Positions 49,053 to 64,000 of a stretch of DNA of 64,000 bases are shown here, piece by piece; positions within the stretch are counted from its first letter, which is position 1; every line of letters starts with the position of its first letter. The position numbers were made by a program, and so were the translations under genes. The notes under the pieces are model-generated. The model did not search any database. It saw nothing but the letters and a program-made list of their open reading frames with translations, and was not told where the DNA came from. The stretch is from Terrimicrobium sacchariphilum (GTDB lineage Bacteria > Verrucomicrobiota > Verrucomicrobiia > Chthoniobacterales > Terrimicrobiaceae). The stretch lies in NCBI RefSeq assembly GCF_001613545.1, contig NZ_BDCO01000002.1, positions 2,046,001 through 2,110,000 of the forward strand, in the 5' to 3' direction.

Positions 49053-51329
49053 CTAGAAGGACATTAGGTCCTTGCGGGCGGCGCTTTGGACTTTGTTGAG
49101 CTCCTGAATGATGCTCAGGGTGCGCTCTTCCTTTTTCACGAGCTGACTGATGGCAGCGGGATTTTGGTCCTCGAGCAATTGGATCTCCGTGAGAAGCATC
49201 TGGGCGGAGTTGATGACCGATGCGAGTTGGCGCATCGACTCCTTGTCCGTACGGTTTTCCTTGGTCACCTGCCGGTAATATTCGATCTGGCGCTCAAGCC
49301 AGCGAGCAGCTTCGTCGATGGCGGCCTCTCCTCCCACGAGTCGACCCTGAGGCGTAAAGGCGGGCGGGGTGGGTTCATTGGGACGTACCGGGATCACGCT
49401 TTGCGGCACTTCGGCGATGCCGGGAGTGGTCGAGCGATTGGTGATGATCGTCGGGGTGATGAAAATGATGAGGTTCTTCTTGCTGCGGGCCCGACCCTTG
49501 GCTTTGAAGAGCTCCCCGATGCCGGGAATGTCTCTCAGGAACGGGACGCCATTGCGGGCATATTCGTCGAAGGCCTGCTCAAGGCCGCCGACGGCCAGGG
49601 TGTAACCCGAATCCACCTGCAACGCGGCATTGTAGATGCGCGATGAGGCAATGGGGTAGTCATTGCCTTGAATGGTGGTGGTGCCCACGATGGAGGAAAT
49701 GGTGATCGCAACATTCAGGACGACCGAATTGTCGGGCATGGTCTTGGGCAGGATGTTGATGATCGTGCCGATGGGAAGATACTCGACCTCGGCAGTGGTC
49801 GTGCCGCCGACGCCGGGTGTCACAGAAGACGATGAGGCGAGAACGGGCTGATTGACGACGCTACGGATGACCACCTCGCGGTTGTTGATGGTGAGCACGC
49901 GGGGGTACTGCACCGTCGTTGTCTCGTTATCGGTAAGAAAGGCCTGAAGCGCAGCGGAGACATCGTGCACTGAGAGGACTGCCGAGTAGGGCATCGCCGC
50001 CGAGACCGTGTAGTCCTTGTTGTATGTCGAGTAGTCGTAGGGAGAGGAGCCGGGGGGAAGCTGGCCGGATTGGCGCTGGTTCTGATTGTTGGTATCGATG
50101 TTGATCGATCCAGAGGGCGACGCCTGGATATTGGTCAGCGAGACGTCGAAGCCGCCCTTGAGCGTGCCTGCCCAGTTGATGCCGAGCTCTTTCGACGGGT
50201 CCTTGGTCGTCTCGAAGAACTTTACCTCGATACCGATGAGAGCCTGGGGACGATCCACTGCGCTGAGGTAACCCTCAACCCATTGGTGCTGCTGGCGAGT
50301 GGCGATGACATACACCGTGCCGGAATCCGCATTGTAAATGACCTGCGGGCCTCCATCGCCAGTGCTGTTGGCGGCCAACTGGCTGCCGGGGGCCACGGCG
50401 GTTGGAGTCGTTTGAAGGGAGCCGAAATTTTCGACGCTGGCCTCGTCGGCGTGCGCTGCCGAAACCGAACTGGTCGGAATGCCGAGCAGGGACTTGATCT
50501 GTTCAATGATCTTTGGCGTCTCCACCTTGAAGACCGTGGTGGCACCCTGCATGTTGATGTCCCCGATGCCCGTGCCGCTCGATGAACTGGAGTTTGAGTT
50601 GGCGCTGCCACCCGTGGTGCCATTGCCACCCTCGTACTTGACGTTGTCCTGTGGGTTGAACTTGATTTTGTAGATTCGCCCGACGAGTTCCTTTTCGTTG
50701 GTGGGGCGCATGAACCACACACCGTTTTCGTAGAAGATCGTGACGCCATTGGCCTTCGCGACGGTCTCAAGGGTCCGGAACGGACTGGCCTTCAGGGTGA
50801 AAGTGACGAGCGTATTTTCGGCAGCCGAGGACTCCTGCAGGGCAACGAAGGGGATGCCGGCATCATCTGCGAGGAAACGGAGGACGTCGCGAAGGGAGGC
50901 TCGGTCAAACTCATAGAGCTTGGCTGGCGCATTGCGGAGCTTTGCCGCCATGGCGTTGCCCCAGTTGTAGTCCGGGTAAACCTCGAAAGCCGGAGCGGGA
51001 ATCGTCTGGGGCGCCAGCGGGACGGTCATCTGGGCGACCGGGGTGGCATTGGCAAGTGCCGCAGGCGTAGCCGCCACGACGGGCGCGGGAGCCAGTGCTG
51101 CCGGGGTCGGCACGCTAACGCGAATCGAAGGCGGTTGAGAAGGTTGGGGAGGCGGAGTCTGCGTAACTACGGCCGGCGGCTGTTGCGCGATGACTGTCGG
51201 TACGTTCTGCTGTGCGGCGGCACCGCATAGACTGGATGCCATAAGGCTAATGACTAACGCGGACTGCTTGCCGGGGCAGGCAATCGCGTTTCGAGCCTCA
51301 CGGGCAGAACGAAAACACAGGCTCTTCAT
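49053..51329 (-). CDS. Secretin (PilQ/GspD-like outer-membrane channel of the pilus system)
   Basis: A 758-residue protein. A signal peptide (about residues 20-40, ending CGAAAQ) leads to a Pro/Ala/Thr/Val-rich linker (~40-115), an STN-like domain (RASLRDVLRFLADDAGIPFV), N-domains interrupted by a Gly/Ser/Asn stretch (GGNGTTGGSANSNSSSSSG), and the secretin barrel with VEYLPIGTIINILPKTMPDNSVVLN, TLAVGGLEQ, VPFLRDIPGIGELFKAKGR and LIIFITPTII. A ~120-residue helical tail follows, longer than in PilQ. It resembles the Amuc_1098-type secretin of Akkermansia (recalled). It is divergent from the pilus operon, which lacks another secretin. Confidence 0.93.
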   Translation of the reverse strand: MKSLCFRSAREARNAIACPGKQSALVISLMASSLCGAAAQQNVPTVIAQQPPAVVTQTPPPQPSQPPSIRVSVPTPAALAPAPVVAATPAALANATPVAQMTVPLAPQTIPAPAFEVYPDYNWGNAMAAKLRNAPAKLYEFDRASLRDVLRFLADDAGIPFVALQESSAAENTLVTFTLKASPFRTLETVAKANGVTIFYENGVWFMRPTNEKELVGRIYKIKFNPQDNVKYEGGNGTTGGSANSNSSSSSGTGIGDINMQGATTVFKVETPKIIEQIKSLLGIPTSSVSAAHADEASVENFGSLQTTPTAVAPGSQLAANSTGDGGPQVIYNADSGTVYVIATRQQHQWVEGYLSAVDRPQALIGIEVKFFETTKDPSKELGINWAGTLKGGFDVSLTNIQASPSGSINIDTNNQNQRQSGQLPPGSSPYDYSTYNKDYTVSAAMPYSAVLSVHDVSAALQAFLTDNETTTVQYPRVLTINNREVVIRSVVNQPVLASSSSVTPGVGGTTTAEVEYLPIGTIINILPKTMPDNSVVLNVAITISSIVGTTTIQGNDYPIASSRIYNAALQVDSGYTLAVGGLEQAFDEYARNGVPFLRDIPGIGELFKAKGRARSKKNLIIFITPTIITNRSTTPGIAEVPQSVIPVRPNEPTPPAFTPQGRLVGGEAAIDEAARWLERQIEYYRQVTKENRTDKESMRQLASVINSAQMLLTEIQLLEDQNPAAISQLVKKEERTLSIIQELNKVQSAARKDLMSF

Positions 51330-51533
51330 TGGTTAGGGCGGCATCCGCATGTTCAGTCTGCGGGAGGTGAATAAGTAGGGGGTTGGCAGGCTATTTACCA
51401 GCCCAAAGTGCATTGGGATAGCCCAAAAGTTCAGAGAATTTACGCATTCAGTTGCATAAATTGCTTTCTGCCCAAAGTGCTTTCATGGAGTTTTTTGCTG
51501 GCATCTGGCAGAGGGAATGATCATTGTTGTTGC
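51330..51533. promoter_or_regulatory. Divergent regulatory region with repeated GCCCAAAGTGC motif
   Basis: Between the secretin and the pilus operon. GCCCAAAGTGC occurs at 51401-51411 and 51470-51480, and a partial copy GCCCAAAAGTT at 51421-51431. The first copy is part of an inverted repeat CCCAA-AGTGCA-TTGGG. The spacing of copies one and two-partial is 20 bp, about two helical turns. It is AT-richer than its surroundings. No convincing -35/-10 pair stands out. Confidence 0.45.
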
Positions 51534-54035
51534 GTGAAGTCGGTGAAATCTGCGCCGTGCGTCTGGGCGTTCACCCTGGTCGAAATCCTTTTGGCCATAG
51601 CGGTGATCTCTGTTTTGACTTCAGCGGGCTATTATGTCGCGACCACCACGAAAGAGACGGCGCGAGAAAACAAGCTCCGCTCCGACGTTACGAATCTTAA
51701 TACGGCGGTGCAGCTGTATGTTGCCAATGGTGGGACCATCCCGGCAAATGCCACTGCTCAGCAGGTTCTCACCAAGCTGCAGAGCCGGGCGACAGGTGCG
51801 TCTGCGGCTGTGGCCATCGGGCTGTCAGGCAGCTTTGTTGATCCCCGATTGACGCCTTCCGTCCAATCGTCGGATCAGGCTTCAGGCAGCGAACTGCGCG
51901 CGGTCTGGGTGCCTGCGGCGGGTGCTGGGGAGGCGGGAAAGTTTGCCGTAGTCGCGACAGGGCAGGGAATACGGGAGTTTTCCATCGATGAAAGCAAAGC
52001 GGCGGCAGGGGCGTCCACCCCAGCTCCAGAGGTAAGGCAGCAAACAATGGAAGCTGTCTCCCTGGCTGAGTCGAATCCTCACTGGGTCTGGGGTGTCTCC
52101 GATTCCCAGCCAGCAGCGGCAGAATTGGGCGCCACACCGACAACCGGGGCCGCGGCGGGACCTTCTGCAACACCATCCGCGAGCAATCTGTCGCAACTGG
52201 ATCCTCCGAGCTTTAGTCGCGGAGGCGGCTCTTATGATCTGAGTTTGTTTCCCATGGCAGACCTGACGTTGAGCAATCCCAACCTGGTTCCGTCCAAGGT
52301 TTATTATCAGGTCGCAGGAGGGGCACCTCAGGAATATACTGGGGGGACTCTGCCCTCGTTCCATCCAGACACCCAGGTGACGGCATGGGTGAAATCCAAC
52401 TCCGCCGCATATTCGGATAGCTCGATGGTCAATGCGACCTACGACAATCTGGTAAAGACCCTCCAGGTATCCCTGAGCGGTCCGACGAGCCTGACCTATC
52501 AGCAGGCTGGCGGAGCCATGTACGGAAGCGCCTCGGTAGCGGCCCCGGTCGCGACGGCGACGGTCACGACATCCGGGATCTCCTCAGCCTATCAAGGGAC
52601 GTCTTATTATGTGATCTATACGAGTGTGGGTTCCGCGACGCCCTTGACCACTGGAGTCTCAAGCGGGAGTGCGACTACTGCGGCTATTGATCTGTCGCTA
52701 TCCAACTGGGGCACGGCATCGTCTTTGACTGTCAGTGCTGCGGCGAAGGCGGTTCGCACGGACTACTATGCGGATAGCTCAGTGCAGACGATCTCCGTGG
52801 GGAAATCTCCGACCGCGCTGGCGATGCCATCGATCAGCCCGACCTCAGGCGAGCGCTCTGCCTTGGTGGCGGTCACGGTCACTGCCTCGGGCACGCTTCC
52901 GGCAGGGTTTCAGATTTACTACACTCAGGATGGTTCAGATCCCGGGGTAGGATCAAATGGCAGACCTACCAGTGTAGCGGCGACGTTGCTGCCTCTGGGA
53001 GGCGGAACGAGTGGCACTTTTACTCCAGAGTCCGGAGGTACGGGAGCTCTGGCAGTGAAGGCGCGAGTTTATGGTCCCTCGGGTTATGAAAGCTGGTTTA
53101 CGCCGAGCAGCGTGATTTCGGTGGTTTATACGGAGGCCTCGTCCGGCATTCCGGAAGGCGCCCTCGTCGGAAGCGCTGATGTCAACGGTGTCTTTGTGGG
53201 ATCGCTTATTTACTCGGATCAGAATGGGTCGATGCCCAGCAATATCAACTTCAACAGCGGGGCTCAGATCCAGCAGGGGAATATCTATTTCCCGGGTACA
53301 CCGGTAATCGATCTTCAAAATGGCGGTGTAATCGTCGGCAATCAGTACAATGCCGACGGCACCCAGGTGATTCCTGCGACGGACACCCGCAAGATCGTGG
53401 ACCTTAACGGGAGCATCTATCCGACCAATTACACAGTCCGCTTTAACAACAATGCAGTGGTGCAGGGAAAAGTCTATCGACGGAGCACTCCCCCCGAGTT
53501 TCCGACTGTCTCCAAACCCCCGTCGCCCACGAATTCCAATGGTGTCAACATCAACAGCCCGCAAACAACGGCGGTCAATCCCGCAATCACGGCTAATGTC
53601 AATCTGAATAATGGAGCGGGGGATGTGAAACTGGCTCCTGGGAGCTACGGAAGTCTGAATGCCAGCTCTGGAACTTCATTTGTCATCGGGGACCCTAACT
53701 CGACGACGCCGCAGGTCTATAGCTTTCAGAGCCTGAGTCTCAATAGCGGCAGTCAGCTCAAAGTGGTCGGCCCGGTAATTTTGACGATGAGCGGAAATCT
53801 TTTCATCAACGGCGGCTCGATCATGGGAAATTCAGCGCATCCCGAATGGCTGCAACTGAATATGTACTCGGGAGACTTTCAGGTGAATAGCAATGGTCAG
53901 GCGTATGCAAGGGTGGTCGCTCCCAAGAACAACGTCGGGCTCGATGGGACGTTTACGGGTAGCGTGGTGGCCAAATATCTGCGGATTAATGGCAATGGTG
54001 TAGCCTTTACTGTTCCGCCTGTAATCGGTAGTTAA
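51534..54035 (+). CDS. Giant prepilin-like protein with adhesin-type repeats
   Basis: An 833-residue protein. The N-terminus VKSVKSAPCVWA-FTLVEILLAIAVI is a type IV prepilin signal, cut after Ala12 with Glu at +5. The helical spine and LRSDVTNLNTAVQLYV resemble pseudopilins. After ~residue 150 the protein is Ser/Thr/Gly-rich: Pro/Ala linkers, then beta domains, among them a chitobiase-like strand set near 458-530 (FQIYYTQDGSDPG, then VYGPSGYESW), and a C-terminal repetitive beta region (~700-833; GNLFINGGSIMG, NVGLDGTFTGSVVAKYL) like DUF7305/polymer-forming domains. It is likely a tip or minor pilin with adhesive function. Start GTG at 51534 or 51543. Confidence 0.8.
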   Translation: MKSVKSAPCVWAFTLVEILLAIAVISVLTSAGYYVATTTKETARENKLRSDVTNLNTAVQLYVANGGTIPANATAQQVLTKLQSRATGASAAVAIGLSGSFVDPRLTPSVQSSDQASGSELRAVWVPAAGAGEAGKFAVVATGQGIREFSIDESKAAAGASTPAPEVRQQTMEAVSLAESNPHWVWGVSDSQPAAAELGATPTTGAAAGPSATPSASNLSQLDPPSFSRGGGSYDLSLFPMADLTLSNPNLVPSKVYYQVAGGAPQEYTGGTLPSFHPDTQVTAWVKSNSAAYSDSSMVNATYDNLVKTLQVSLSGPTSLTYQQAGGAMYGSASVAAPVATATVTTSGISSAYQGTSYYVIYTSVGSATPLTTGVSSGSATTAAIDLSLSNWGTASSLTVSAAAKAVRTDYYADSSVQTISVGKSPTALAMPSISPTSGERSALVAVTVTASGTLPAGFQIYYTQDGSDPGVGSNGRPTSVAATLLPLGGGTSGTFTPESGGTGALAVKARVYGPSGYESWFTPSSVISVVYTEASSGIPEGALVGSADVNGVFVGSLIYSDQNGSMPSNINFNSGAQIQQGNIYFPGTPVIDLQNGGVIVGNQYNADGTQVIPATDTRKIVDLNGSIYPTNYTVRFNNNAVVQGKVYRRSTPPEFPTVSKPPSPTNSNGVNINSPQTTAVNPAITANVNLNNGAGDVKLAPGSYGSLNASSGTSFVIGDPNSTTPQVYSFQSLSLNSGSQLKVVGPVILTMSGNLFINGGSIMGNSAHPEWLQLNMYSGDFQVNSNGQAYARVVAPKNNVGLDGTFTGSVVAKYLRINGNGVAFTVPPVIGS

Positions 54036-54053: not shown

Positions 54054-55142
54054 ATGGCCTGCCTGCAGCCTGAACCTCCAATGCGACTCCTTGATCTTCC
54101 TCCAGATTCTCCTGTTGCCCAGCGCATCAAGGAGTTGGCTACCTCTGCGTCGGTCAGTGACTTTTACCTGACCCCGTTTGAGCGCATGAGCTACAAGTAC
54201 AACGGGCAGTTAATCTACGACGATATCGTCTTCGAGATGGCGGTGCCCGAGCATCTGGAGCCGGGTTGCGACGATAGCGCAATGGATCTCTTTGACTACC
54301 GCTTCCGTGTCAACCAGATGGTGACGCGCGGGCGCTTGCGTTGGGTACTCCGTCTCCTGCCGAGCAAGATCCCCGAGCCGGAAGCCATTCGTGTGCCCAC
54401 GCCAGCCATCAAGGCTTTTCTGGAGGCCAAGAATGGACTGTTCCTGATCTGCGGAGCTACCGGCAGTGGTAAATCGACTACGATTGCCTCCATGGTGTTG
54501 CACCGGGCGAAACGGCGGCGTGAACATGTCATTTCCTTTGAGGATCCGATCGAGTTTGTCTATCCGGATGGTCTTCCGTCGCTGGTTTCCCAACGTGAGA
54601 TGGGATCGGACGAGATTGATTTCTCGTTGGCGTTGAGGGCGGCTCTCCGCCAGGCCCCCGACGTGATTATCGTGGGTGAGATTCGAGACGGCGAGACGGC
54701 GGAGATTGCATTGCAGGCGGCGGAGACTGGTCACGTGGTTGTAGCCACCCTGCACACATCTTCTGCCTCCCAGACGGTACAGCGATTTTTGAAGCTTATT
54801 TCCTCGGATCGGCTGGAAAGCTCTCAAGAGACGCTGGCCGATACGCTGCGGCTCGTGATGTGCCAGCGATTGCTGCTGGACGAGGGACTGGGCAAGCGCT
54901 TCCCGATTCATGAGGTGATGCTGCAATACGATGGCGTCGTCAACATCATCAGGCGGGGCGATTTCAAGAAGATCGACCAGGAGCTCGAAACGGGCTGGAA
55001 GCGCGGAATGTTCAATTTTGAGAAAAGCATCCAGGTCCGCGCGGATGAGGGCTATCGCAGTAGCTCCGGCGTGTCGAAGACCGGAAACTCCTGGGAGGAG
55101 ATTGAAGAGTATCTGGAGAAACAGGTGGAGGTAGCGCCATGA
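54054..55142 (+). CDS. PilT-like secretion/retraction ATPase
   Basis: A 362-residue hexameric-type ATPase. A short PAS-like N-domain (~28-115, SVSDFYLTPFERMSY) precedes Walker A GATGSGKST, the Asp box HVISFEDPIEFVYP, Walker B DVIIVGEIRD and the His box TGHVVVATLHTSSASQT. There is no tetra-Cys zinc site as in PilB/GspE, and the LVSQREMG and ALRQAPDVI phrasing is closest to PilT/PilU. It should drive pilus retraction at the cytoplasmic base. ATG at 54081 is an alternative start. Its last 4 bases overlap the next gene. Confidence 0.9.
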   Translation: MACLQPEPPMRLLDLPPDSPVAQRIKELATSASVSDFYLTPFERMSYKYNGQLIYDDIVFEMAVPEHLEPGCDDSAMDLFDYRFRVNQMVTRGRLRWVLRLLPSKIPEPEAIRVPTPAIKAFLEAKNGLFLICGATGSGKSTTIASMVLHRAKRRREHVISFEDPIEFVYPDGLPSLVSQREMGSDEIDFSLALRAALRQAPDVIIVGEIRDGETAEIALQAAETGHVVVATLHTSSASQTVQRFLKLISSDRLESSQETLADTLRLVMCQRLLLDEGLGKRFPIHEVMLQYDGVVNIIRRGDFKKIDQELETGWKRGMFNFEKSIQVRADEGYRSSSGVSKTGNSWEEIEEYLEKQVEVAP

Positions 55143-56008
55143 CGTTGAAGGATGTTGTTTCGGTATTGAATTTTGCAGCCTTCCGTCCGGAGCCGGATGA
55201 TCCGTCGGCCAGCTGGCGTCGTCGTTTTCCGACCCACCGCACGGTGCTGGTGGGGGTGGGAAAGGCTTCTCTCGGCTGGCGGGGAGTGCTGAAAAATGGT
55301 CGCTTCACCGAGGGCGGGTTGATCCGGGGCGAGCTGAAGGAGTTGATCAATCAGGCCTCGATCCAAATCAAGGATCTGGCTGACGATGGCTGGTGTGCGG
55401 TATCGCTGAACACCCGCTATGTGATCAGCCTGGAGACCAACCTTTCCCGACGACCGGGCAGCGAGGACGTAATCAAGACCACCCCTCGTAATGTGCTCGG
55501 TGCGCGCTATGAGCGAGGGAAACGGTATGCGGTGACGCACAACCCGGAGACAAATGCCAGCATCCTGCTTTCCACCGACGAGGACTATATCAAAAAACTC
55601 GAAGGTATGCTGAAGGAGGCCGGGCTCAGTATTGGGCGGGTCTGTTGCGGCTCTTACGTGCTTCTCCGTCACGCCCTCTCGGCGACCAACTCGACGCGGA
55701 GCGGGGAAAAGACGGCGACCTGTTTCTATGTTGTCTGCTGTATGGGGGCGGTCTGTGCTCTCGTGCAGGACCAGGACCGCTGGCTGGAGCTTCGCTCACG
55801 CACGGATGTCTACGAGGATACTCTCGATCCGGTGATCGATCTGGTGACGCCTTTCAAGCAGCGCGTCGCTCCGGAGAGTGAGATCGTCCTGATCTGTGAT
55901 CAACCCTATGAGGGGCTGGCGGAAGCATTGCAGGAACTGTTCACGGGCCATAAAATCACGGATCTCTCCCAACCCGATCTGCTCTGGAGTCTGATCGCCC
56001 AGTACTAA
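55139..56008 (+). CDS. PilM/GspL-like cytoplasmic assembly protein (divergent)
   Basis: A 289-residue protein without membrane segments. I do not recognise its motifs, but the position between the ATPase and a PilN-like protein is that of PilM. Weak similarity to the actin-like fold is seen in HRTVLVGVGKASLGWRGVL (strand pair near 34-52) and TCFYVVCCMGAVCALVQDQDRW (near 193-214), where PilM has its second nucleotide-binding strand pair. The canonical phosphate loops are not visible, and Cys are unusually frequent near 177-178 and 194-206. It may be a degenerate PilM or a GspL-type protein. Confidence 0.55.
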   Translation: MTLKDVVSVLNFAAFRPEPDDPSASWRRRFPTHRTVLVGVGKASLGWRGVLKNGRFTEGGLIRGELKELINQASIQIKDLADDGWCAVSLNTRYVISLETNLSRRPGSEDVIKTTPRNVLGARYERGKRYAVTHNPETNASILLSTDEDYIKKLEGMLKEAGLSIGRVCCGSYVLLRHALSATNSTRSGEKTATCFYVVCCMGAVCALVQDQDRWLELRSRTDVYEDTLDPVIDLVTPFKQRVAPESEIVLICDQPYEGLAEALQELFTGHKITDLSQPDLLWSLIAQY

Positions 56009-56598
56009 TGCAAATCCTCGCCAAATCGATCGATGACCTGAAGACGGAGCGCAAAGGGGTAAGCCCGCCGCTGCCGCCGATCTTTCGTTTGCTGCCAATG
56101 TTGTTTTATTTGACGATAGCCGCATCGATCGGCCTCAACGGCATCTTCTTTCTCCGGCTCAGCCAGGAGGTGCAGCGCAAGGAGGCAGCGATCAAGCGCA
56201 AGTCGGATTACGACGCAGCGCTCAAAAAGGCGCAGACTGAGCGACGGGATCTCGAAGGCGAGGCGAAAAAAGCCTCCGACATTCTTTCCTGGGTGGATAC
56301 CACGCGGCCCCTTCAGCCGCTTGTCGTCGAGATAGCCCGTAGCGTAGCGGCAGACTCGACCATGGTGGAACTGCGCATGGAGCGTGATGAGGATTCCCCG
56401 AATCAGATCAAACTCTCGATGCGGCTCAATAGCGACTCCACCCGGCAACTCGACAATACGCTCGAGAAAATCTCCTCTCAGCGTTACCGCACCTACTCTC
56501 CTCAACAGACCGTGAACGGGCAGGAAATCGACTACAAAGCCACCTTGCTCTGGCAGGATGCCTCCCGCCCTCAACCTCCGGAACCTGCCGCCAAATGA
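56008..56598 (+). CDS. PilN-like inner-membrane assembly protein
   Basis: A 196-residue bitopic protein: short cytoplasmic N-terminus, one membrane span (about residues 26-50, FRLLPMLFYLTIAASIGLNGIFF), a coiled coil (~52-90) and a ferredoxin-like periplasmic domain (~95-180; TMVELRMERDED, IKLSMRLNSDSTRQLDNTLEKI). This is the PilN/GspL-C layout, although the usual INLLP motif near the start is absent. It likely binds the PilM-like protein and pairs with the PilO-like protein. It starts on the last base of the upstream stop codon and overlaps the next gene by 4 bp. Confidence 0.7.
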   Translation: MQILAKSIDDLKTERKGVSPPLPPIFRLLPMLFYLTIAASIGLNGIFFLRLSQEVQRKEAAIKRKSDYDAALKKAQTERRDLEGEAKKASDILSWVDTTRPLQPLVVEIARSVAADSTMVELRMERDEDSPNQIKLSMRLNSDSTRQLDNTLEKISSQRYRTYSPQQTVNGQEIDYKATLLWQDASRPQPPEPAAK

Positions 56599-57134
56599 AC
56601 AACAAGCAAATTGCCTGCGTGATCGTGCTGATCATGCTCCTGGGATTGCTCCAGGTGACGAGCTGGATGAACAGCCGGATGGTTAAGATGCAGGGAGAAG
56701 CGGCAAGTGCAACCCAGGCGGCGGATTTGGCGTCGATCCAGCTGATGGGTGAGCAGCGCCAGCTTGAGGAGTTGAAGAAAAGCTCCAGAAATCTCATCGA
56801 TTTTCTCAATACGTGGCAGCCCTATTTCGCGCAGACGGACTCGTCTCAGAACGCCGAGTTGCGTATCTCCCTTCGCATCAAGCAGGACAACCTGGTGAGC
56901 CTTTCGCAGCGCTATGAGGTTGCCTCGATCAAAAACAACAAGTCGCTCCCGTATGTGATGCGGGCGCATCTGTCGTTCGAAGACAACTACGCGCGGCTCC
57001 TCAATTGGTTCGGAGCGATTGAAACAGAGTTGCCCACCCTTCGCATTTCGAGTCTTCGTATCGCTCCGGGAACCGGAGAGAGCGACCTCAAGATTGATGC
57101 CATCCTGGAGCAGCCAATATCCAGTACCCGATGA
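56595..57134 (+). CDS. PilO-like inner-membrane assembly protein
   Basis: A 179-residue bitopic protein: membrane span at about residues 5-22 (IACVIVLIMLLGLLQVTSW), coiled coil (~25-70) and a ferredoxin-like end (~75-178; LRISLRIKQDNLVSLSQRYE, VMRAHLSFEDNYARLLNWFGAIE, LRISSLRIAP). The pattern of a single span, coiled coil and late FEDNYARLLNWF matches PilO/GspM. By position it is the counterpart of Akkermansia Amuc_1100 (recalled), a surface protein studied for host effects, but it is much shorter. Confidence 0.7.
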   Translation: MNNKQIACVIVLIMLLGLLQVTSWMNSRMVKMQGEAASATQAADLASIQLMGEQRQLEELKKSSRNLIDFLNTWQPYFAQTDSSQNAELRISLRIKQDNLVSLSQRYEVASIKNNKSLPYVMRAHLSFEDNYARLLNWFGAIETELPTLRISSLRIAPGTGESDLKIDAILEQPISSTR

Positions 57135-57679
57135 AAAAGCGCCTTTTGATTTGTGTTTTTCTGGCAGCCGGAGTCGTGGTGCACGGTCAGGAGATCGGGC
57201 TTTTGCCCCAGCAAAAAGCCTCGCTGACAGTATCGTCCAGTGAGCGCAATCCTTTTGGGAAAAAGCCCCCCAAGAAAACCGTTGAGCAGGCCAAGGTGCC
57301 CGTGGAAAACGAGGAGAGCAGACTGCGAGATGCGATCAGCGAATTGCCGCTGGCGGGTGTGGTGGAAGCTCGTGGCGGAGTAAAGGTGCTCCTTGGCTCG
57401 ATTGCCATCCAGGAGAATGAGTTGCTGCCGGCCTTGATCTCCGGGCAGACTGAGCAGATTCGCGTGATTTCGGTGACTCCCAAGGAGGTGATGCTGGCAT
57501 TTGTCGATTCTGATGGAACGGCGAACAACCGGAAGATTCGCCTCCAGGTGGATATGACGCCCTCTGTGCGCTACAAGCTCGGTGGCAGCTCTGCCACCGC
57601 CGCAAAGGATGAAACCAAGCAGGAGTCCGCTCTCGGAGGCGTGTTTAAGAGGAATGACTCTGCTCCGAACAAGCAATAG
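57131..57679 (+). CDS. PilP-like periplasmic protein
   Basis: A 182-residue protein with a signal peptide (about residues 1-20, ending VVHGQ) and a beta-type core (~75-155): AISELPLAGVVEARGGVKVLLGS, then IRVISVTPKEVMLAFVDSDG. PilP and GspC homology-region proteins connect PilNO to the secretin and have similar short strands. The assignment rests mainly on gene order (after the PilO-like gene) and the size. It overlaps its upstream neighbour by 4 bp. Confidence 0.6.
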   Translation: MKKRLLICVFLAAGVVVHGQEIGLLPQQKASLTVSSSERNPFGKKPPKKTVEQAKVPVENEESRLRDAISELPLAGVVEARGGVKVLLGSIAIQENELLPALISGQTEQIRVISVTPKEVMLAFVDSDGTANNRKIRLQVDMTPSVRYKLGGSSATAAKDETKQESALGGVFKRNDSAPNKQ

Positions 57680-58631
57680 ACGGCAGTTTGCTACGCGAGG
57701 TGACAAGCGCCGGGCGATCCGGGGGTTTAGCTTCTCGGAACTGCTGATGGCTGCCGCCATCGCGGTCTGCGTCTTGACCGTGGCAGTCATCGCGTTTCGC
57801 GCGGTTTCGCAAAACGCGAACCGCTATGGGCAGTACACAAAAATACAGCTGCCAAGTGGTGCACTCTTTGCCCTATACGGCCTGAGCGGAACGGATTTGC
57901 AGACCTGGGTGGCTCCCAACTACGGTCGGGTCGCACAGGCTGAGTTGTTGCGGGAGACCTTCTATCAAGATATTTCCCATGCGACGGCGGTTTACTGCCT
58001 TGCAAGGACGGGAAGAGATTCGATCGTTCGCCCAACGTCGATCAATATCGATCAGACGATTTATCCCAATCTTGACGCGAGGACCTTGGGGACGCCGGAG
58101 GATTTCCGAGTTTTTCTCGAACGCAATGGCGTGGCCGATGCCGGGTTCTTTTTTGGATATCGAGGCGCTGCAGGGCGAACAAACCTCTCGATATTTATCC
58201 TCCAGCCATCGACCTCCGAGACGACGCTGAGCGTTCGCGCCGTGTATGAACTCGACATGATCGCCACGGTGGGGACGCCAGGCGGCACCTACGTGTCTGT
58301 CCGGCGGTATGATAACTACAGCAACCAAAACCGGGCTCCGACCGACTACTACGATATCTTTTACCCGGAGAGCGATCCTGCGGACTTTCCCGTAACGGCA
58401 GTCCATTTTGAGTTAAGTCGTCGCCTGGCTCCGAGCGATACGGCTTACGACCTGTTCAAGGTAGCTCCCGAAAAGCCATTTTACTTTCTCTGGTGGCCTG
58501 ATCCGGCAACGCCGGTATTGGCTAACGACTCCAATCCGTCCTACGGGAGCGGTGATCCGCGCTCTGCATATGGTCAGATGGGCAGCCGGACATCGCTCTT
58601 TATGGTTGTGCCGATGTTTCCCGCCTTATGA
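57654..58631 (+). CDS. Minor pilin with long leader (PilW/GspJ-like)
   Basis: A 325-residue protein. The leader of 24 residues is unusually long and basic, ending RRAIRG, followed by FSFSELLMAAAIAVCVLTV with Glu at +5. The ectodomain is Tyr/Asp/Pro-rich with long loops (TPGGTYVSVRRYDNYSNQN) and a PilW-like C-terminal part. The ATG at 57654 lies inside the 3' end of the PilP-like gene (26-bp overlap), with AGAGGA right before it. The stop overlaps the next start (ATGA). Confidence 0.75.
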   Translation: MTLLRTSNRRQFATRGDKRRAIRGFSFSELLMAAAIAVCVLTVAVIAFRAVSQNANRYGQYTKIQLPSGALFALYGLSGTDLQTWVAPNYGRVAQAELLRETFYQDISHATAVYCLARTGRDSIVRPTSINIDQTIYPNLDARTLGTPEDFRVFLERNGVADAGFFFGYRGAAGRTNLSIFILQPSTSETTLSVRAVYELDMIATVGTPGGTYVSVRRYDNYSNQNRAPTDYYDIFYPESDPADFPVTAVHFELSRRLAPSDTAYDLFKVAPEKPFYFLWWPDPATPVLANDSNPSYGSGDPRSAYGQMGSRTSLFMVVPMFPAL

Positions 58632-59959
58632 GACGTAAGCGGAAATACATAGCCGGCTCGGTGCTGGTATACGCTCTCCTGATTTGCATGGTGGGCGCGG
58701 TGATGCTCGCCTCATGGATTTCTCTCCTCGGCAGCAGGGTCCGGTACGTCGAGGAGGCGGTTAAGCCAGCAATCAAACGGCGCGTCGTCCTCGAAAACAG
58801 CCGCGCTCTCGCGACGGAATACCTGCTGGAGAATGTATTGCCATATTCGTATCAGGCGATGCCTGAGATCGACTTTGATGCTTTGGACGGCTGGGGGGAG
58901 TTTTCCTTGGATGCCTCCGCGCAGATCCTGACGCCGCTAAACTCCACCACCGTTCAGCATGGAGTAAGTGGCGGTACCAGCTACGGCCAGGTGAATCACT
59001 TTTCGCCAGGTCTGGGTATCGGATTTCAGACGGTTCTCTCCGGGCAGCTTTCGGACGGGGAGGGGATGAATGCCTGGGCGTTTTATGCCAAATCGCGGAG
59101 CCCGATATTTGCCGGCGACTTGTTGACGATGCAGAGAAGCGGGGTGGTTTCTCCTGTGGGGAGTAACGTTTTTCTGGGTGGGGTCGTCATGGGAGCGGCG
59201 AATTTTGTTGCCTGGCAGGCCGGTTCCTTTGGGCTGACAGCCAAGACCTTCCAAGCTGCGACGGTGGCGGGATTGGCGACCATCAACGGCCCCGATGGAC
59301 CCTTGGTTCAGCTGGATTTTCCCTTCATACCGGTGACATCGGGGAGCGGGTATTATGATGGCACTCTGAATGTGGTGAGCCCCTCGGGCGGTATCAACTC
59401 ACTAGCAACCCGGCTCGTCGGTTCTTCACCGGTGTTGGTGGACCCCCAGATTGCCCAGACGATGGGAGGAGCCACTACGGATGGCACGGGAGGGGTCACG
59501 ATCGACCTGGGCCAGATTTCGGGAAATTACAGTATCTCGGGCAACATGACTAGGCTGACCCTGATCGGTGTTGAGAATGGGGTGACAGGGGAAAGCTATC
59601 CCATGGCCCGTATCGTTTACGTCCAGACCGTGCCATCGGCTGGAGCCGCGACATCCATTGTCCTTTCAGGAAACAATACTCGCCGGGTGTACCTCGGTTT
59701 GAAAAAACTTGATGGCAGTGCCACCGTTTCGCTTTCCGGCGCCAATGCTTCCTGGCGCCTGGCAGGCTCGATTGAGAGTTGCCCCCTGACATTCAGCCTC
59801 GCCGGACACAGCCTGACCGTGACAGGAGGCTTTCGCACAAACCGGGGCTTTCAGATCTCAGGGGGCGGCTCGGTTACGATTCAGCGGGAAGCCGCCGCCT
59901 GGGGAAACCTTGAGTCGTTTGCGGATCGCAATGCCTGGCTGGAGGTTTATCGCCAATGA
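58628..59959 (+). CDS. PilX/GspK-like minor pilin with repetitive beta domain
   Basis: A 443-residue protein. N-terminus MRRKRKYIAGSVLVYALLICMVGAVMLAS resembles PilX-type signals (basic, then GSVL...), lacking the FTLIE phrase. After a helical region (~30-75) it has a Gly/Ser-rich beta region, ending LAGHSLTVTGGFRTNRGFQISGGG. The composition is like that of the giant prepilin at the start of the operon. Overlaps both neighbours by 4 bp. Likely part of the pilus tip complex. Confidence 0.65.
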   Translation: MRRKRKYIAGSVLVYALLICMVGAVMLASWISLLGSRVRYVEEAVKPAIKRRVVLENSRALATEYLLENVLPYSYQAMPEIDFDALDGWGEFSLDASAQILTPLNSTTVQHGVSGGTSYGQVNHFSPGLGIGFQTVLSGQLSDGEGMNAWAFYAKSRSPIFAGDLLTMQRSGVVSPVGSNVFLGGVVMGAANFVAWQAGSFGLTAKTFQAATVAGLATINGPDGPLVQLDFPFIPVTSGSGYYDGTLNVVSPSGGINSLATRLVGSSPVLVDPQIAQTMGGATTDGTGGVTIDLGQISGNYSISGNMTRLTLIGVENGVTGESYPMARIVYVQTVPSAGAATSIVLSGNNTRRVYLGLKKLDGSATVSLSGANASWRLAGSIESCPLTFSLAGHSLTVTGGFRTNRGFQISGGGSVTIQREAAAWGNLESFADRNAWLEVYRQ

Positions 59960-60345
59960 AAACCAAGGGATATACGCTCGTTGAGACGCTCGTTGCGGCG
60001 GGAATCCTGGTCGTAGCGATCGGCGCGGCTGCTGCCCTGGCGGTCACCATGACGGCCTTTGAGGAAGGAAATGCGACCGTTTCTCGCGCCTTCAACTATC
60101 AAGAGCAGGCGGCCAGGCTTTACCGGTTGGGTTTTACGCCGGACGAGGTAATCGCGCTGCTGCCTCCGGAATCCAGCGTCCAGAGCATGAACTTTACCAC
60201 GAATTCCCTGACAATTTCCAACCTCGGCACCGTGGAGACGGCGACATTGGAGATGGTCTTCACATCCGGATCCGCGATCACCTCAGCGACTGCTGGCGCG
60301 AATCAGATAAATACGATAACAGTCGTGCGGCCCAGCATCCGATAG
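59956..60345 (+). CDS. Short pseudopilin (PilV/GspI-like)
   Basis: A 129-residue protein. Leader MKTKG is followed by YTLVETLVAAGILVVAIGAAAALA, with Glu at +5, a complete prepilin signal. The C-terminal ~60 residues are Thr/Ser/Asn-rich beta strands. Size and position, next to PilW- and PilX-like genes, suggest a PilV/GspI role in priming the fibre. pilC starts 2 nt after its stop. Confidence 0.8.
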   Translation: MKTKGYTLVETLVAAGILVVAIGAAAALAVTMTAFEEGNATVSRAFNYQEQAARLYRLGFTPDEVIALLPPESSVQSMNFTTNSLTISNLGTVETATLEMVFTSGSAITSATAGANQINTITVVRPSIR

Positions 60346-60347
60346 CC

Positions 60348-61610
60348 ATGCTCAAGAAGGTCGTCCTTACCAATATCAACACTGCTCGTTCTTTCCCGGT
60401 CATCGTCGATACCGACGATGATCAAAAGGCGATCCTAGGCGCTGGAAAAGCGCCGAACGAGACCGCGGTGGTCACGGATATTGTGGGTGTTGACGAAGCC
60501 GTGCATCGCGGCACCACCAAGGCTCCCGGCAAGGAGGAGATGGTGACTCTCTTCGGCGGTCTGGCTCGATGCCTGGAACGGAATATCTCGACCGTCAAGA
60601 GTCTGGAGTTGATCTCGGGCCGCCTGTCCACACCCAGGTACCGGGGAGCGGTGGCGGACATCGCTCAGAAAGTGCTTGAGGGAGAGAAGTTGAGTGATTG
60701 CTTCGGCATGCATCCCGACCTTTTTACCGAGGACATCGTCGCGTTGATACGGGCCGGTGAGGAGTCGGGCCAGGTTCACGAAGTTTTCCGGCAAGTCGCA
60801 CGCTCAAATGACAAGACTCAACGTGTTTTGAAGAAACTGAGGGCTGGATTAGTTTATCCGGCCATCGTTCTGGTGCTCGCCATTGCTGTTGTAATTGTCA
60901 TGAGTTTTACCCTCGTGCCAGCAATTTCAAAGCTCTACGGCGCGATGCATGTGACTCTGCCGGTGGCTACCCGCATGATGATGGCGTTTTCTCAAACGTT
61001 GATCAAACAGCCCTACTTTGTATTGATTCCAATCATTGGCTTGGGGGCCTTGTTTAAATATTGGCCGAAGATATATCGAATTCCTCGAGTTCAATTGACT
61101 CTCACCAGAGTGCCCACGGTCGGGAACATAATCCGAAAATCGGCCGCGATGGTGAGTTTTCGGTGCTTGTCCATGCTGCTGCATGCCAATGTCCGAATCA
61201 GCACTGCGCTTGAAATCTCCGCGAGGAGTGCGAACCATGTGGAGTTCGAACAGTTTTTTTTGCGGGTGAGGGATCATATCATCGAAGGAATGTCCCTGCC
61301 TGAAGGATTCCTTATGGAATCACATTTACTCGGCCCCGATGGACGAATGATTGCCGGTGTAGTTCAAATGGCCGGTGAGACAGGCGGAGTGAACGAGTTG
61401 CTGGATGAAATCGCGGCAGATTATGAAGAGGAGCTTGATATCATTGCAGGCCAGCTCGACAAGATCATGGAGCCTTTCATGATCGTATTCCTGGCTGTGG
61501 TTGTGGGTTTTTTAATTTACGCTATTTACGGTCCAATTTTCAACCTGAGTCAGGTTCTCTTGCCGAAAAAGCCGGGTGCGCCTGTTCCTACAGCTGAAGT
61601 CAGTCGCTGA
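60348..61610 (+). CDS. Inner-membrane platform protein PilC/GspF
   Basis: A 420-residue protein. A ~60-residue non-conserved N-terminus precedes two GspF domains. The first has TLFGGLARCLERNISTVKSLELISG and DLFTEDIVALIRAGEESGQVHEVFRQVA; the second has AAMVSFRCLSMLLHANVRISTALEISA and LGPDGRMIAGVVQMAGETGGVNELLDEIA. Membrane spans lie at about 168-192, 216-236 and 375-398. It is the platform on which the ATPases act. The codon and base composition become visibly AT-richer from the middle of this gene onwards. Confidence 0.95.
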   Translation: MLKKVVLTNINTARSFPVIVDTDDDQKAILGAGKAPNETAVVTDIVGVDEAVHRGTTKAPGKEEMVTLFGGLARCLERNISTVKSLELISGRLSTPRYRGAVADIAQKVLEGEKLSDCFGMHPDLFTEDIVALIRAGEESGQVHEVFRQVARSNDKTQRVLKKLRAGLVYPAIVLVLAIAVVIVMSFTLVPAISKLYGAMHVTLPVATRMMMAFSQTLIKQPYFVLIPIIGLGALFKYWPKIYRIPRVQLTLTRVPTVGNIIRKSAAMVSFRCLSMLLHANVRISTALEISARSANHVEFEQFFLRVRDHIIEGMSLPEGFLMESHLLGPDGRMIAGVVQMAGETGGVNELLDEIAADYEEELDIIAGQLDKIMEPFMIVFLAVVVGFLIYAIYGPIFNLSQVLLPKKPGAPVPTAEVSR

Positions 61611-64000
61611 TGAAGCTCAGGCCGGGCACAGTATATTCCCGAGCGCTCGCTATTTTTTTGTTGGCGTCCCTATTGCTGCTGGGAGCAGTAGCCGCGCTGA
61701 CACAGTTAATTATCCTCCGGGAATTTAGTCAGACTGAGAGCCGGGAGCTTAAAGCGACAATGCAGCGTGTCGCTCTATTGCTGGGGAGGGAGGACGCTGC
61801 AATGGAAGGGGTGCTGAGCAATTGGGAACAAATTCCATTTTTTCGAAATATTGCACTAGGCTCATTAGCAAGGAATTTGAAAGAAGAAGAGGTCACGCGA
61901 TCATTGGAAGATTTGCGTGCAGATTTCTTCGCGGTGGTAGGCGAGGACGGCAGGATGCGTCGGGCTTTTTACCGTAATGAAAATATCCGGAAAAAGTTGG
62001 ATGCCCAAATCGGGGGGGTGATGTCCCGTGTAGCGAAGGATGGAAAGCCTGGGTGTTCCTCGGGCTTTGTCGTGATCTCCAATATGCTTTGCAGTGTGAG
62101 CTTCCTCAAGTTGGATGGCGCGCCCAATAAAGTTGTCGTTGGGCGAATTTTCGACAAGGACGCTTGGACGTTTATTGAACAGATGTTCTCTGCCGAGATC
62201 GGCTTTGGATCGTTTGGTGAACCTACAGCTGGTGTGATTTCTCCTGAAAATATCGTCGATCTTTTCAATAAGCAGGATGTCGTTATCAATGTGGAAAACA
62301 GTGACAGAATCACTGGTATCCGTTTGCTGAGAGGTATTGACGGTACGCCTCTTGGCTACATCAAGGTCTCGCAAGGTCGTCCTTTACGGCAGGAGGGGCT
62401 GCACGCCAGCAGTGTATTTTTGATCGGGATCTCTCTGGCGGGAAGCGCGCTGGTGGTTCTTGTGTGGATATTGCTGGATCGCACCATCTTGGCGAGAATC
62501 AGTGACCTGACTCGAAAGCTGGAACTTGAAAAACGCTCCGGGCGCTTGCCTGTGCGACTCGAGTTTAAGGGCGATGATGAATTGGGCACGCTGGCCAGAA
62601 GCATTGAGGATCTCGCCTCCAAGCTGGAACACTCTCAGGATCAGTATCGCGCCATCGTGGAAGATCAGGCGGAGTTGATTTGTCGATTTGACGAGAATTT
62701 CACCCTTACTTTCGGCAATGAGGTTTTCTGTCGGTATCTGCTGAACGGCAGGGCGACCATTGCGGATACAGTTCTGCTTGAGGTCTTGCCCGACGATGTG
62801 GCTGGTGAACTGAGGCGTGCTTTTGGGAGTCTCTCCAAGGACAGGCCGATGGTGATCCAAACGGTGGAGTTTTCCTTTCCTGATGGAAGGAACTCCATGT
62901 GGTTGCGAACTACGCTCAGGCGGGGGTTTGACGATCACGGGCGCTCCCGCGGCGGCCAGTGGGTGGCCTCTGACGTAACCACTCAGGTTCTTGCGCAGAA
63001 ACAGGCTCTGGAAACGGAGCGGAGGTTTCGACGTCTCTTTGAGACTTCCTCCGACGGCATTCTGTTGATCGACGTCGGAACGATGTTTGTAACCGACATC
63101 AATACGAGTCTCTGTCGCATGCTATTCCTGGCGGGTAGTGATGTGCTGGGCAAGAGATTGCAGGAACTTCCGATCTTTGCTCCGTGCATGCCGCTTATCC
63201 GTGACGCGTCGGCTCAGCCGTCAAAGGAGGTCTACGGCGGCAGTAAACGGGAATGTCGCCTGGATCGTGTGGACGGGACATCGCTTCATGCTGAGGTGCG
63301 ATGCTCCAGTTATCTGGTGGGTGATCGCAACTACATCCAGCTGAATTTCCGCAACATCAGTGAACGGGTGGAGGGAGAACACCAGATGCGGCTTCTCTCC
63401 GCCAAGCTCCTGCGATTGCAGGATGAGGAGCGACGACGCATTGCTCGGGAGTTGCATGACTCCACGGCTCAGAATCTCTCGGCGCTCGAAATGAATATCA
63501 GCCTGCTGGAGCCGATTATTCAGCCGAAAAACGGTCGAGCCACCCGGATCATCAAGGAAACCCGGGAGATCGTGCAGGAGTGCTCAAAGGAATTGAGAAA
63601 TATCTCCTATTTGCTCCATCCACCGCTCATCGACGAGGTTGGGTTGGCCTTTGCTGTGAAGTGGTTTGTCGATGGATTCGCCAAGCGCACGGGAATGGCC
63701 GTGCACCTCGAGGTTGATCCGCTGTTTCCTCGTCTCGCGGCTGAGATTGAGATGCCGCTTTTCCGGGTGGTACAGGAGGCGATGACCAATGTGTACCGGC
63801 ACTCCCGGGCGGACGATGTCTGGATCACGCTGCACCATACGGAAAATGAGGTCTCGCTGGAAATCCGAGACAATGGAAGGGGCTTCCCCGATCCTGAAGT
63901 ACTCGAGGCCGGGGGCATGGGCGGCGGGGTCGGCTTGGCGGGAATGAGGGAGAGGTTGTCCAATCTCGGGGGCTCGCTGGATGTGGCCAGTTCATCATTT
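61610..64000 (+). CDS. Membrane sensor histidine kinase (CHASE4-like, HAMP, PAS, HisKA_3), 3'-truncated by window
   Basis: 797 residues are visible and the frame is still open at the right edge. Two membrane spans (about 13-36 and 268-290) enclose a ~230-residue sensor like CHASE4. A HAMP (~290-340) and two PAS domains (~345-455, ~470-590) follow, then the phospho-acceptor box RRRIARELHDSTAQNLSAL with His616, the N box VQEAMTNVYRHSRA and G box DNGRGFP with GVGLAGMRERLSNLGG. This is the NarX/DegS (HPK7) type, which pairs with a LuxR-type regulator, likely encoded past the edge. Its ATG overlaps the pilC stop (TGATG), so it is coupled to the pilus operon. Confidence 0.9.
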   Translation, partial: MKLRPGTVYSRALAIFLLASLLLLGAVAALTQLIILREFSQTESRELKATMQRVALLLGREDAAMEGVLSNWEQIPFFRNIALGSLARNLKEEEVTRSLEDLRADFFAVVGEDGRMRRAFYRNENIRKKLDAQIGGVMSRVAKDGKPGCSSGFVVISNMLCSVSFLKLDGAPNKVVVGRIFDKDAWTFIEQMFSAEIGFGSFGEPTAGVISPENIVDLFNKQDVVINVENSDRITGIRLLRGIDGTPLGYIKVSQGRPLRQEGLHASSVFLIGISLAGSALVVLVWILLDRTILARISDLTRKLELEKRSGRLPVRLEFKGDDELGTLARSIEDLASKLEHSQDQYRAIVEDQAELICRFDENFTLTFGNEVFCRYLLNGRATIADTVLLEVLPDDVAGELRRAFGSLSKDRPMVIQTVEFSFPDGRNSMWLRTTLRRGFDDHGRSRGGQWVASDVTTQVLAQKQALETERRFRRLFETSSDGILLIDVGTMFVTDINTSLCRMLFLAGSDVLGKRLQELPIFAPCMPLIRDASAQPSKEVYGGSKRECRLDRVDGTSLHAEVRCSSYLVGDRNYIQLNFRNISERVEGEHQMRLLSAKLLRLQDEERRRIARELHDSTAQNLSALEMNISLLEPIIQPKNGRATRIIKETREIVQECSKELRNISYLLHPPLIDEVGLAFAVKWFVDGFAKRTGMAVHLEVDPLFPRLAAEIEMPLFRVVQEAMTNVYRHSRADDVWITLHHTENEVSLEIRDNGRGFPDPEVLEAGGMGGGVGLAGMRERLSNLGGSLDVASSSF

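Follow-up and report, generated by a model that had tools for sequence, protein, structure and literature searches.

A candidate tip pilin with a predicted ComZ-like beta-solenoid beside an apparently exchangeable giant prepilin in Terrimicrobium sacchariphilum

The protein called PilX here is encoded within a pilus gene cluster of Terrimicrobium sacchariphilum, in a stretch of 64,000 nucleotides (contig NZ_BDCO01000002.1, positions 2,046,001 to 2,110,000 of the forward strand) that was analyzed as a whole and is referred to as the window. Based on its predicted structure and on comparison with related loci, PilX is probably the minor pilin that caps the tip in a type IV pilus-like machine, with a ComZ-like beta-solenoid as fixed tip receptor or adhesin, while a giant prepilin encoded in the same cluster would be a separate, exchangeable module. 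For PilX, the gene, its cluster, its conservation, the missing glutamate at position 5 (Glu5), the predicted fold and the insertion point of the solenoid were computed. An earlier note on this DNA had described PilX as a second large, PilX/GspK-like subunit whose end is much like that of the giant prepilin, and had suggested that both assemble into one tip complex. The parts of PilX are as follows.

58628-59959, plus strand: PilX open reading frame (ORF) from the ORF listing, 443 amino acids, ATG start
58628-59098, plus strand: first part of PilX, residues 1-157, with a 10-residue leader, a long helix (8-70) and pilin strands 1-4
59099-59929, plus strand: inserted beta-solenoid, residues 158-434, predicted to have the ComZ/ice-binding-protein fold (model, Foldseek, VIA) and containing both peptides quoted in the earlier note
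59930-59959, plus strand: last pilin strand, residues 435-442, as modelled, and the stop codon

That this ORF is a real gene for a large pilin-like protein was borne out, since two further genomes of this genus encode orthologues that share 86% and 74% identity with it. A scan with an alignment of the PilM-position protein delivered 51 homologous loci, all from Verrucomicrobiota. The closest relatives of the PilM-position protein belong to a Spartobacteria genome and a Verrucomicrobia metagenome-assembled genome (97% identity each), and the other close relatives to Chthoniobacter, Chthoniobacterales or Terrimicrobiaceae. PilX is present in 46 of the 51 loci, and in the other five (L083, L085, L089, L106, L112) the contig stops at or before the slot. 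A single-sequence search recovered PilX from 19 of 97 related genomes. The 42-member alignment on which the following results rest consists of the window protein plus 41 of the 46 locus proteins; L066, L098 and L108 were left out because contig ends truncate them, and L080 and L082 because they were flagged as partial. At L082 (13657-16170), the frame of the PilX relative continues for about 330 residues beyond the match.

Two marks of a tip subunit are found in PilX: the missing Glu5 and, in the model, a ComZ-type architecture. Cleavage is inferred after Gly10, which places a hydrophobic residue, and never Glu, at mature position 5 in all 42 members. GspK lacks Glu5 as well. A prepilin-like pattern with Glu occurs in 47 of 47 relatives of the neighboring PilW and 41 of 41 of the neighboring PilV, although the pattern used was a loose one. 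At or beside the closing strand of the pilin sheet, R434, W437 and E439 are kept in 41, 41 and 42 of the 42 members, respectively.

The AlphaFold2 model of PilX, built from the 42 sequences, reached a predicted local distance difference test (pLDDT) score of 83.3 and a predicted template modelling (pTM) score of 0.80. It shows a helix (8-70) and five pilin strands (81-84, 91-94, 132-142, 147-157 and 435-442), with a beta-solenoid that is inserted between the fourth and the fifth strand and extends to about residue 422. When the model was compared against the Protein Data Bank (PDB) by Foldseek, the sole matches with an E-value under 0.001 were two chains of ComZ (6qvi; E 3.2e-5 and 4.3e-4). 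VIA-align likewise ranked ComZ highest (Z 13.3, 299 residues aligned over PilX residues 46-443), followed by ice-binding proteins (Z 10.5 to 12.4, root mean square deviation (rmsd) 3.2 to 4.3); tapirins, as the next group, reached a Z of 6.9. GspK is not in this VIA-align list, which carries no weight against a likeness to GspK.

ComZ is a competence-associated pilin of Thermus thermophilus and is described as unusual; in the sections of the ComZ paper used here, its solenoid lies between the penultimate and the last pilin strand, and a location at the tip is argued (PMC6561018). According to the same sections, its nearest pilin domain is that of GspK, its nearest solenoid that of the ice-binding protein FfIBP, position 5 is Gly, no characteristic positive patch is described, and the protein binds DNA and the partner pilin PilA2 (PMC6561018). 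PilX resembles ComZ in the predicted insertion point between penultimate and last strand, in the ice-binding type of its solenoid, in lacking Glu5 and in being larger than the adjoining pilins. In contrast, its solenoid comprises 277 residues compared to about 380, its gene neighbors are different, and the two domains appear to be set differently. By predicted architecture, PilX would work like ComZ. PilX lies beside two other minor pilins, lacks Glu5 and, in the model, carries an extra domain within the pilin sheet, as GspK does; however, the predicted insert is a beta-solenoid that separates strands 4 and 5, whereas GspK carries a helical domain between strands 3 and 4, again in the part of that source considered (PMC6561018). 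With the ice-binding proteins of the DUF3494 fold, represented by FfIBP (4nu2), PilX has the solenoid fold in common (Z 12.2), and so has the end of the giant prepilin (Z 14.2), while no DUF3494 sequence match was obtained for the 42 PilX members at E 0.1 or for the 11 members of the giant's end at E 1.

Several results weigh against this reading of PilX. All structure discussed here, for PilX as well as for the giant's end, is predicted. The Foldseek template modelling scores (TM-scores) between the PilX model and ComZ are low (0.21-0.32 overall, and 0.21 to 0.26 for the two chains matched under E 0.001) and the VIA-align superposition has an rmsd of 7.9 over both domains; thus the domains would be set differently from those of ComZ. 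The 42-member profile did not match 6qvi among the PDB sequences at E-values up to 10, and consequently common descent of PilX and ComZ is not established; a corresponding search with the giant's end likewise turned up no informative PDB sequence. Among the Pfam and NCBIfam models, none for PilX or GspK matches any of the 42 members at E 0.1. Thus the name 'PilX/GspK-like' holds by gene position, missing Glu5 and predicted structure, but not by family models. The window protein has no Pfam or NCBIfam family match, and the matches of the other members are restricted to single members (E 0.012 to 0.072) with no pilin model among them. A profile search that scored up to four candidates per genome found the PilX family in 14 of 387 genomes of the phylum, so that it is far from universal. 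Finally, the exact 4-base ATG overlaps seen in the window recur in only some relatives: in 16 of 46 between PilW and PilX, and in 20 of 41 between PilX and PilV.

The further features of the cluster are listed below; several of the gene names reflect position alone.

49053-51329, minus strand: secretin at the PilQ position (PF00263, E 4.2e-35)
51408-54035, plus strand: giant prepilin (AFTLVE), TIGR02532 above cut-off, with an Ig-like middle
53139-54032, plus strand: C-terminal solenoid of the giant prepilin, as predicted by the model and structure matches
54054-55142, plus strand: PilT-like ATPase (PF00437, E 9e-44; pilT family TIGR01420, E 1.4e-80, below its cut-off)
55139-57679, plus strand: four genes at the PilM, PilN, PilO and PilP positions, named by position and conserved in relatives
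57582-58631, plus strand: PilW-position prepilin (GFSFSE), ATGA overlap with PilX; weak N_methyl match, E 0.062, below cut-off
59956-60345, plus strand: PilV-position prepilin (GYTLVE), ATGA overlap with PilX; N_methyl match above cut-off
60348-61610, plus strand: PilC/GspF-like platform protein (TIGR02120, E 1.3e-54, below its cut-off)
61610-64000, plus strand: sensor-kinase-like protein that continues beyond the window, named from reading its sequence, with no family search made

The cluster thus runs from the secretin on the minus strand through the giant prepilin, the PilT-like ATPase, the PilM/N/O/P-position genes, PilW, PilX, PilV and PilC to the kinase-like gene. Apart from a weak GspM match, no family match was found for the PilM/N/O/P-position genes. 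Past the end of the window follow a response-regulator-like ORF, named by reading as well, four small prepilins and a second ATPase of the T2SSE family. The kinase-like gene (window 61610-64000) and the response-regulator-like ORF (L123:47-2204) sit between PilC and the small prepilins, and matches to the kinase profile come after PilC in several loci of the Chthoniobacterales. Across the source genome (G000), matches to the prepilin N-terminal motif family number 122 at E 0.01, and there are eight to the T2SSE ATPase family.

The giant prepilin is listed with a GTG start that would give a leader of about 53 residues (window 51408-51536). An in-frame GTG at 51534 is the likelier start, as it aligns with the ATG of relatives and leaves a normal short leader. 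A second giant prepilin of the same genome (L124:6254-8458 on G000:C2, near 656 kb) comprises 734 amino acids and matches DUF7305 above cut-off, and no pilus genes are among the adjoining ORFs listed. Verru_Chthon cassette, GspG and similar models match, in the window, only the N-terminal part of the giant, below cut-off, and were taken as a prepilin signal.

Does the end of PilX resemble that of the giant? In composition it does, as the earlier note had claimed for a Gly/Ser-rich beta region in both: Gly plus Ser make up 26% of the PilX solenoid and 23% of the giant's, compared to 14% of the neighboring PilW. In predicted fold it does as well. The last 298 residues of the giant were modelled by AlphaFold2 from 11 sequences (pLDDT 92.7, pTM 0.91). 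Foldseek was weak for this model (best E 0.12), and VIA-align matched it to FfIBP over 185 residues (rmsd 3.1) and to ComZ over 226 residues (Z 12.4, rmsd 4.2), with Z 12.1 to 14.2 for the ComZ/ice-binding group and 9.5 for the next group. Both ends thus find common best solved structures, and the lack of structural similarity that the earlier note had named as speaking against its claim did not occur. Compared through these solved structures rather than by direct superposition, the two predicted solenoids are of a common fold class.

In sequence, however, the two ends are not alike. The quoted peptides SGNNTRRVYLGLKKL, which begins at PilX residue 347, and GGFRTNRGFQISGGG, which begins at residue 400, are both absent from the giant prepilin. 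A first hhalign comparison, from which the five short giants and a further one containing unknown residues were excluded, gave a probability of 0.45% for the PilX solenoid against the giant's end; among its six profile pairs, five were at or below 1.0% and the two prepilin N-termini reached 4.0%. With deeper profiles, the profile-profile alignment proposed by the earlier note found no match in nine runs (all ≤0.2%), whereas a control with two halves of the PilX family gave 100%. The best BLASTP E-value between the two solenoid regions was 2.1. Sequence homology between both C-terminal regions was looked for but not found. Among the 11 giant-end members, at E-values up to 1, eight match the Pfam family DUF7305 (best 1.7e-6) and three the 'putative ice-binding-like adhesive domain' pAdhesive_15, with neither match for the window protein.

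The giant slot, between PilQ and PilT, varies considerably. Of the 51 loci, 10 carry a giant of the solenoid type there, five one of the DUF4114 type, four one of the delta-60 propeller type and 18 one of the choice-of-anchor K type. Ten loci have no giant in the slot, where 54 to 421 bases separate the open frames, and in four the slot could not be read. The type models derive from this locus set itself, and the giants of L085, L086, L098 and L108 were typed from fragments without a pilin N-terminus. The module is therefore of another sequence type than the solenoid in 27 of 37 typed loci. L067, for example, was typed as solenoid and L066 as DUF4114, and two genomes of one genus differ, with a long type in G009 and a short type in G006. 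The N-terminal pilin part is common to the types, since the long- and short-type models match each other's members. Behind it follow, at one conserved locus, an Ig-like part with a solenoid, a DUF4114, a delta-60 propeller or a choice-of-anchor K module; the domains found in the giants of relatives are CHB_HEX_C_1, DUF4114, DUF5122/delta-60 and choice-of-anchor K. Such a prepilin N-terminus followed by a domain that is not specific to pili defines modular pilins, for example PilB of Streptococcus sanguinis, in which, in the part of the report used here, a functional module is grafted onto a pilin (PMC8179133). The giant prepilin fits this pattern well. PilX differs from it, as its module is predicted to interrupt the pilin sheet instead of coming after it. 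Beside every type of giant PilX is present where the contig reaches, and of the 10 loci without a giant in this slot, nine encode PilX and the contig of the tenth ends before the PilX slot. This pattern makes PilX look like a core component, with the giant prepilin as a variable, exchangeable accessory.

We infer tip location, partners, assembly order and ligand of PilX from here on. Together with the flanking PilW and PilV, PilX would start and cap the fiber; these two neighbors, rather than the giant, are the likelier constant partners. The head of PilX would then be the first part through the secretin and would come into contact with the target, as the fixed receptor or adhesin at the pilus tip. 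The giant prepilin would act apart from it as an exchangeable module for presentation; its predicted end in this lineage is a solenoid like that of PilX. The PilT-like ATPase in the operon and the second T2SSE-family ATPase behind it suggest that the pilus is retractable.

The proposal of the earlier note, that PilX and the giant co-assemble into a tip complex, read here as a packing of their similar solenoids, holds insofar as both genes lie in one cluster, PilX carries the marks of a tip subunit and both solenoids are of one predicted fold class. However, a matched pair marked by the similar ends is not supported: PilX stays where the giant carries another module or is missing from the slot, giants differ even within one genus, and the solenoids lack detectable sequence similarity. 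We therefore regard a joint complex as rather unlikely. That PilX serves a competence pilus as its DNA receptor, a role proposed for ComZ, and binds DNA at the tip for import by retraction appears about equally doubtful. The ComZ architecture of PilX, the DNA binding of ComZ, the PilT-like ATPase and one match each to the ComEC and DprA families in the genome fit this idea, although the latter say little, because these families were found in 10 and 11 of 14 control genomes. The PilX head has a net charge of 0 in the window, with three lysines; across the 42 members, its net charge is negative in 30, zero in five and positive in seven. This is weak evidence against DNA, because ComZ lacks a characteristic positive patch too. 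A neutral or mostly net negative head thus weakly favors a glycan or surface ligand, and we consider a glycan or the cell surface somewhat more likely than DNA.

Still less likely is that PilX, as the equivalent of GspK, sits at the tip of a pseudopilus in a type II secretion-like system and meets secreted substrates there. GspF and GspM are the best models for the PilC-position (E 1.3e-54) and the PilO-position protein (E 0.0043), both below cut-off, and the pilin domain of ComZ has its nearest relative in GspK. In contrast, the two ATPases point to a retractable pilus, and the helical insertion of GspK between strands 3 and 4 is unlike the PilX model. A tip-capping PilX with a fixed solenoid receptor beside an exchangeable giant remains the explanation that we favor. 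One might speculate further that ComZ is no Thermus curiosity, that tip pilins with an inserted solenoid regularly cap a class of pili maintained in different orders of Verrucomicrobiota, and that the tip is double-headed here, with the fixed PilX solenoid and that of the exchangeable giant stacked into one adhesive fibrillum; this, however, is rather unlikely.

No publication describing such a protein from Verrucomicrobiota was found in the open-licence literature of PubMed Central, and without a Pfam or NCBIfam family such genes would remain unnamed in annotation. What appears new is a putative solenoid cap, distinct in sequence and maintained in different orders of Verrucomicrobiota, its fixed position next to exchangeable giants, and the predicted occurrence of one fold twice in a single cluster. 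That another phylum shows the predicted architecture of ComZ as a standing component of a pilus cluster, with no sequence similarity, suggests that pili with a solenoid cap may be more general than known. A testable rule would follow for these pili: the cap stays constant while the adjoining giant pilin swaps its outer module.
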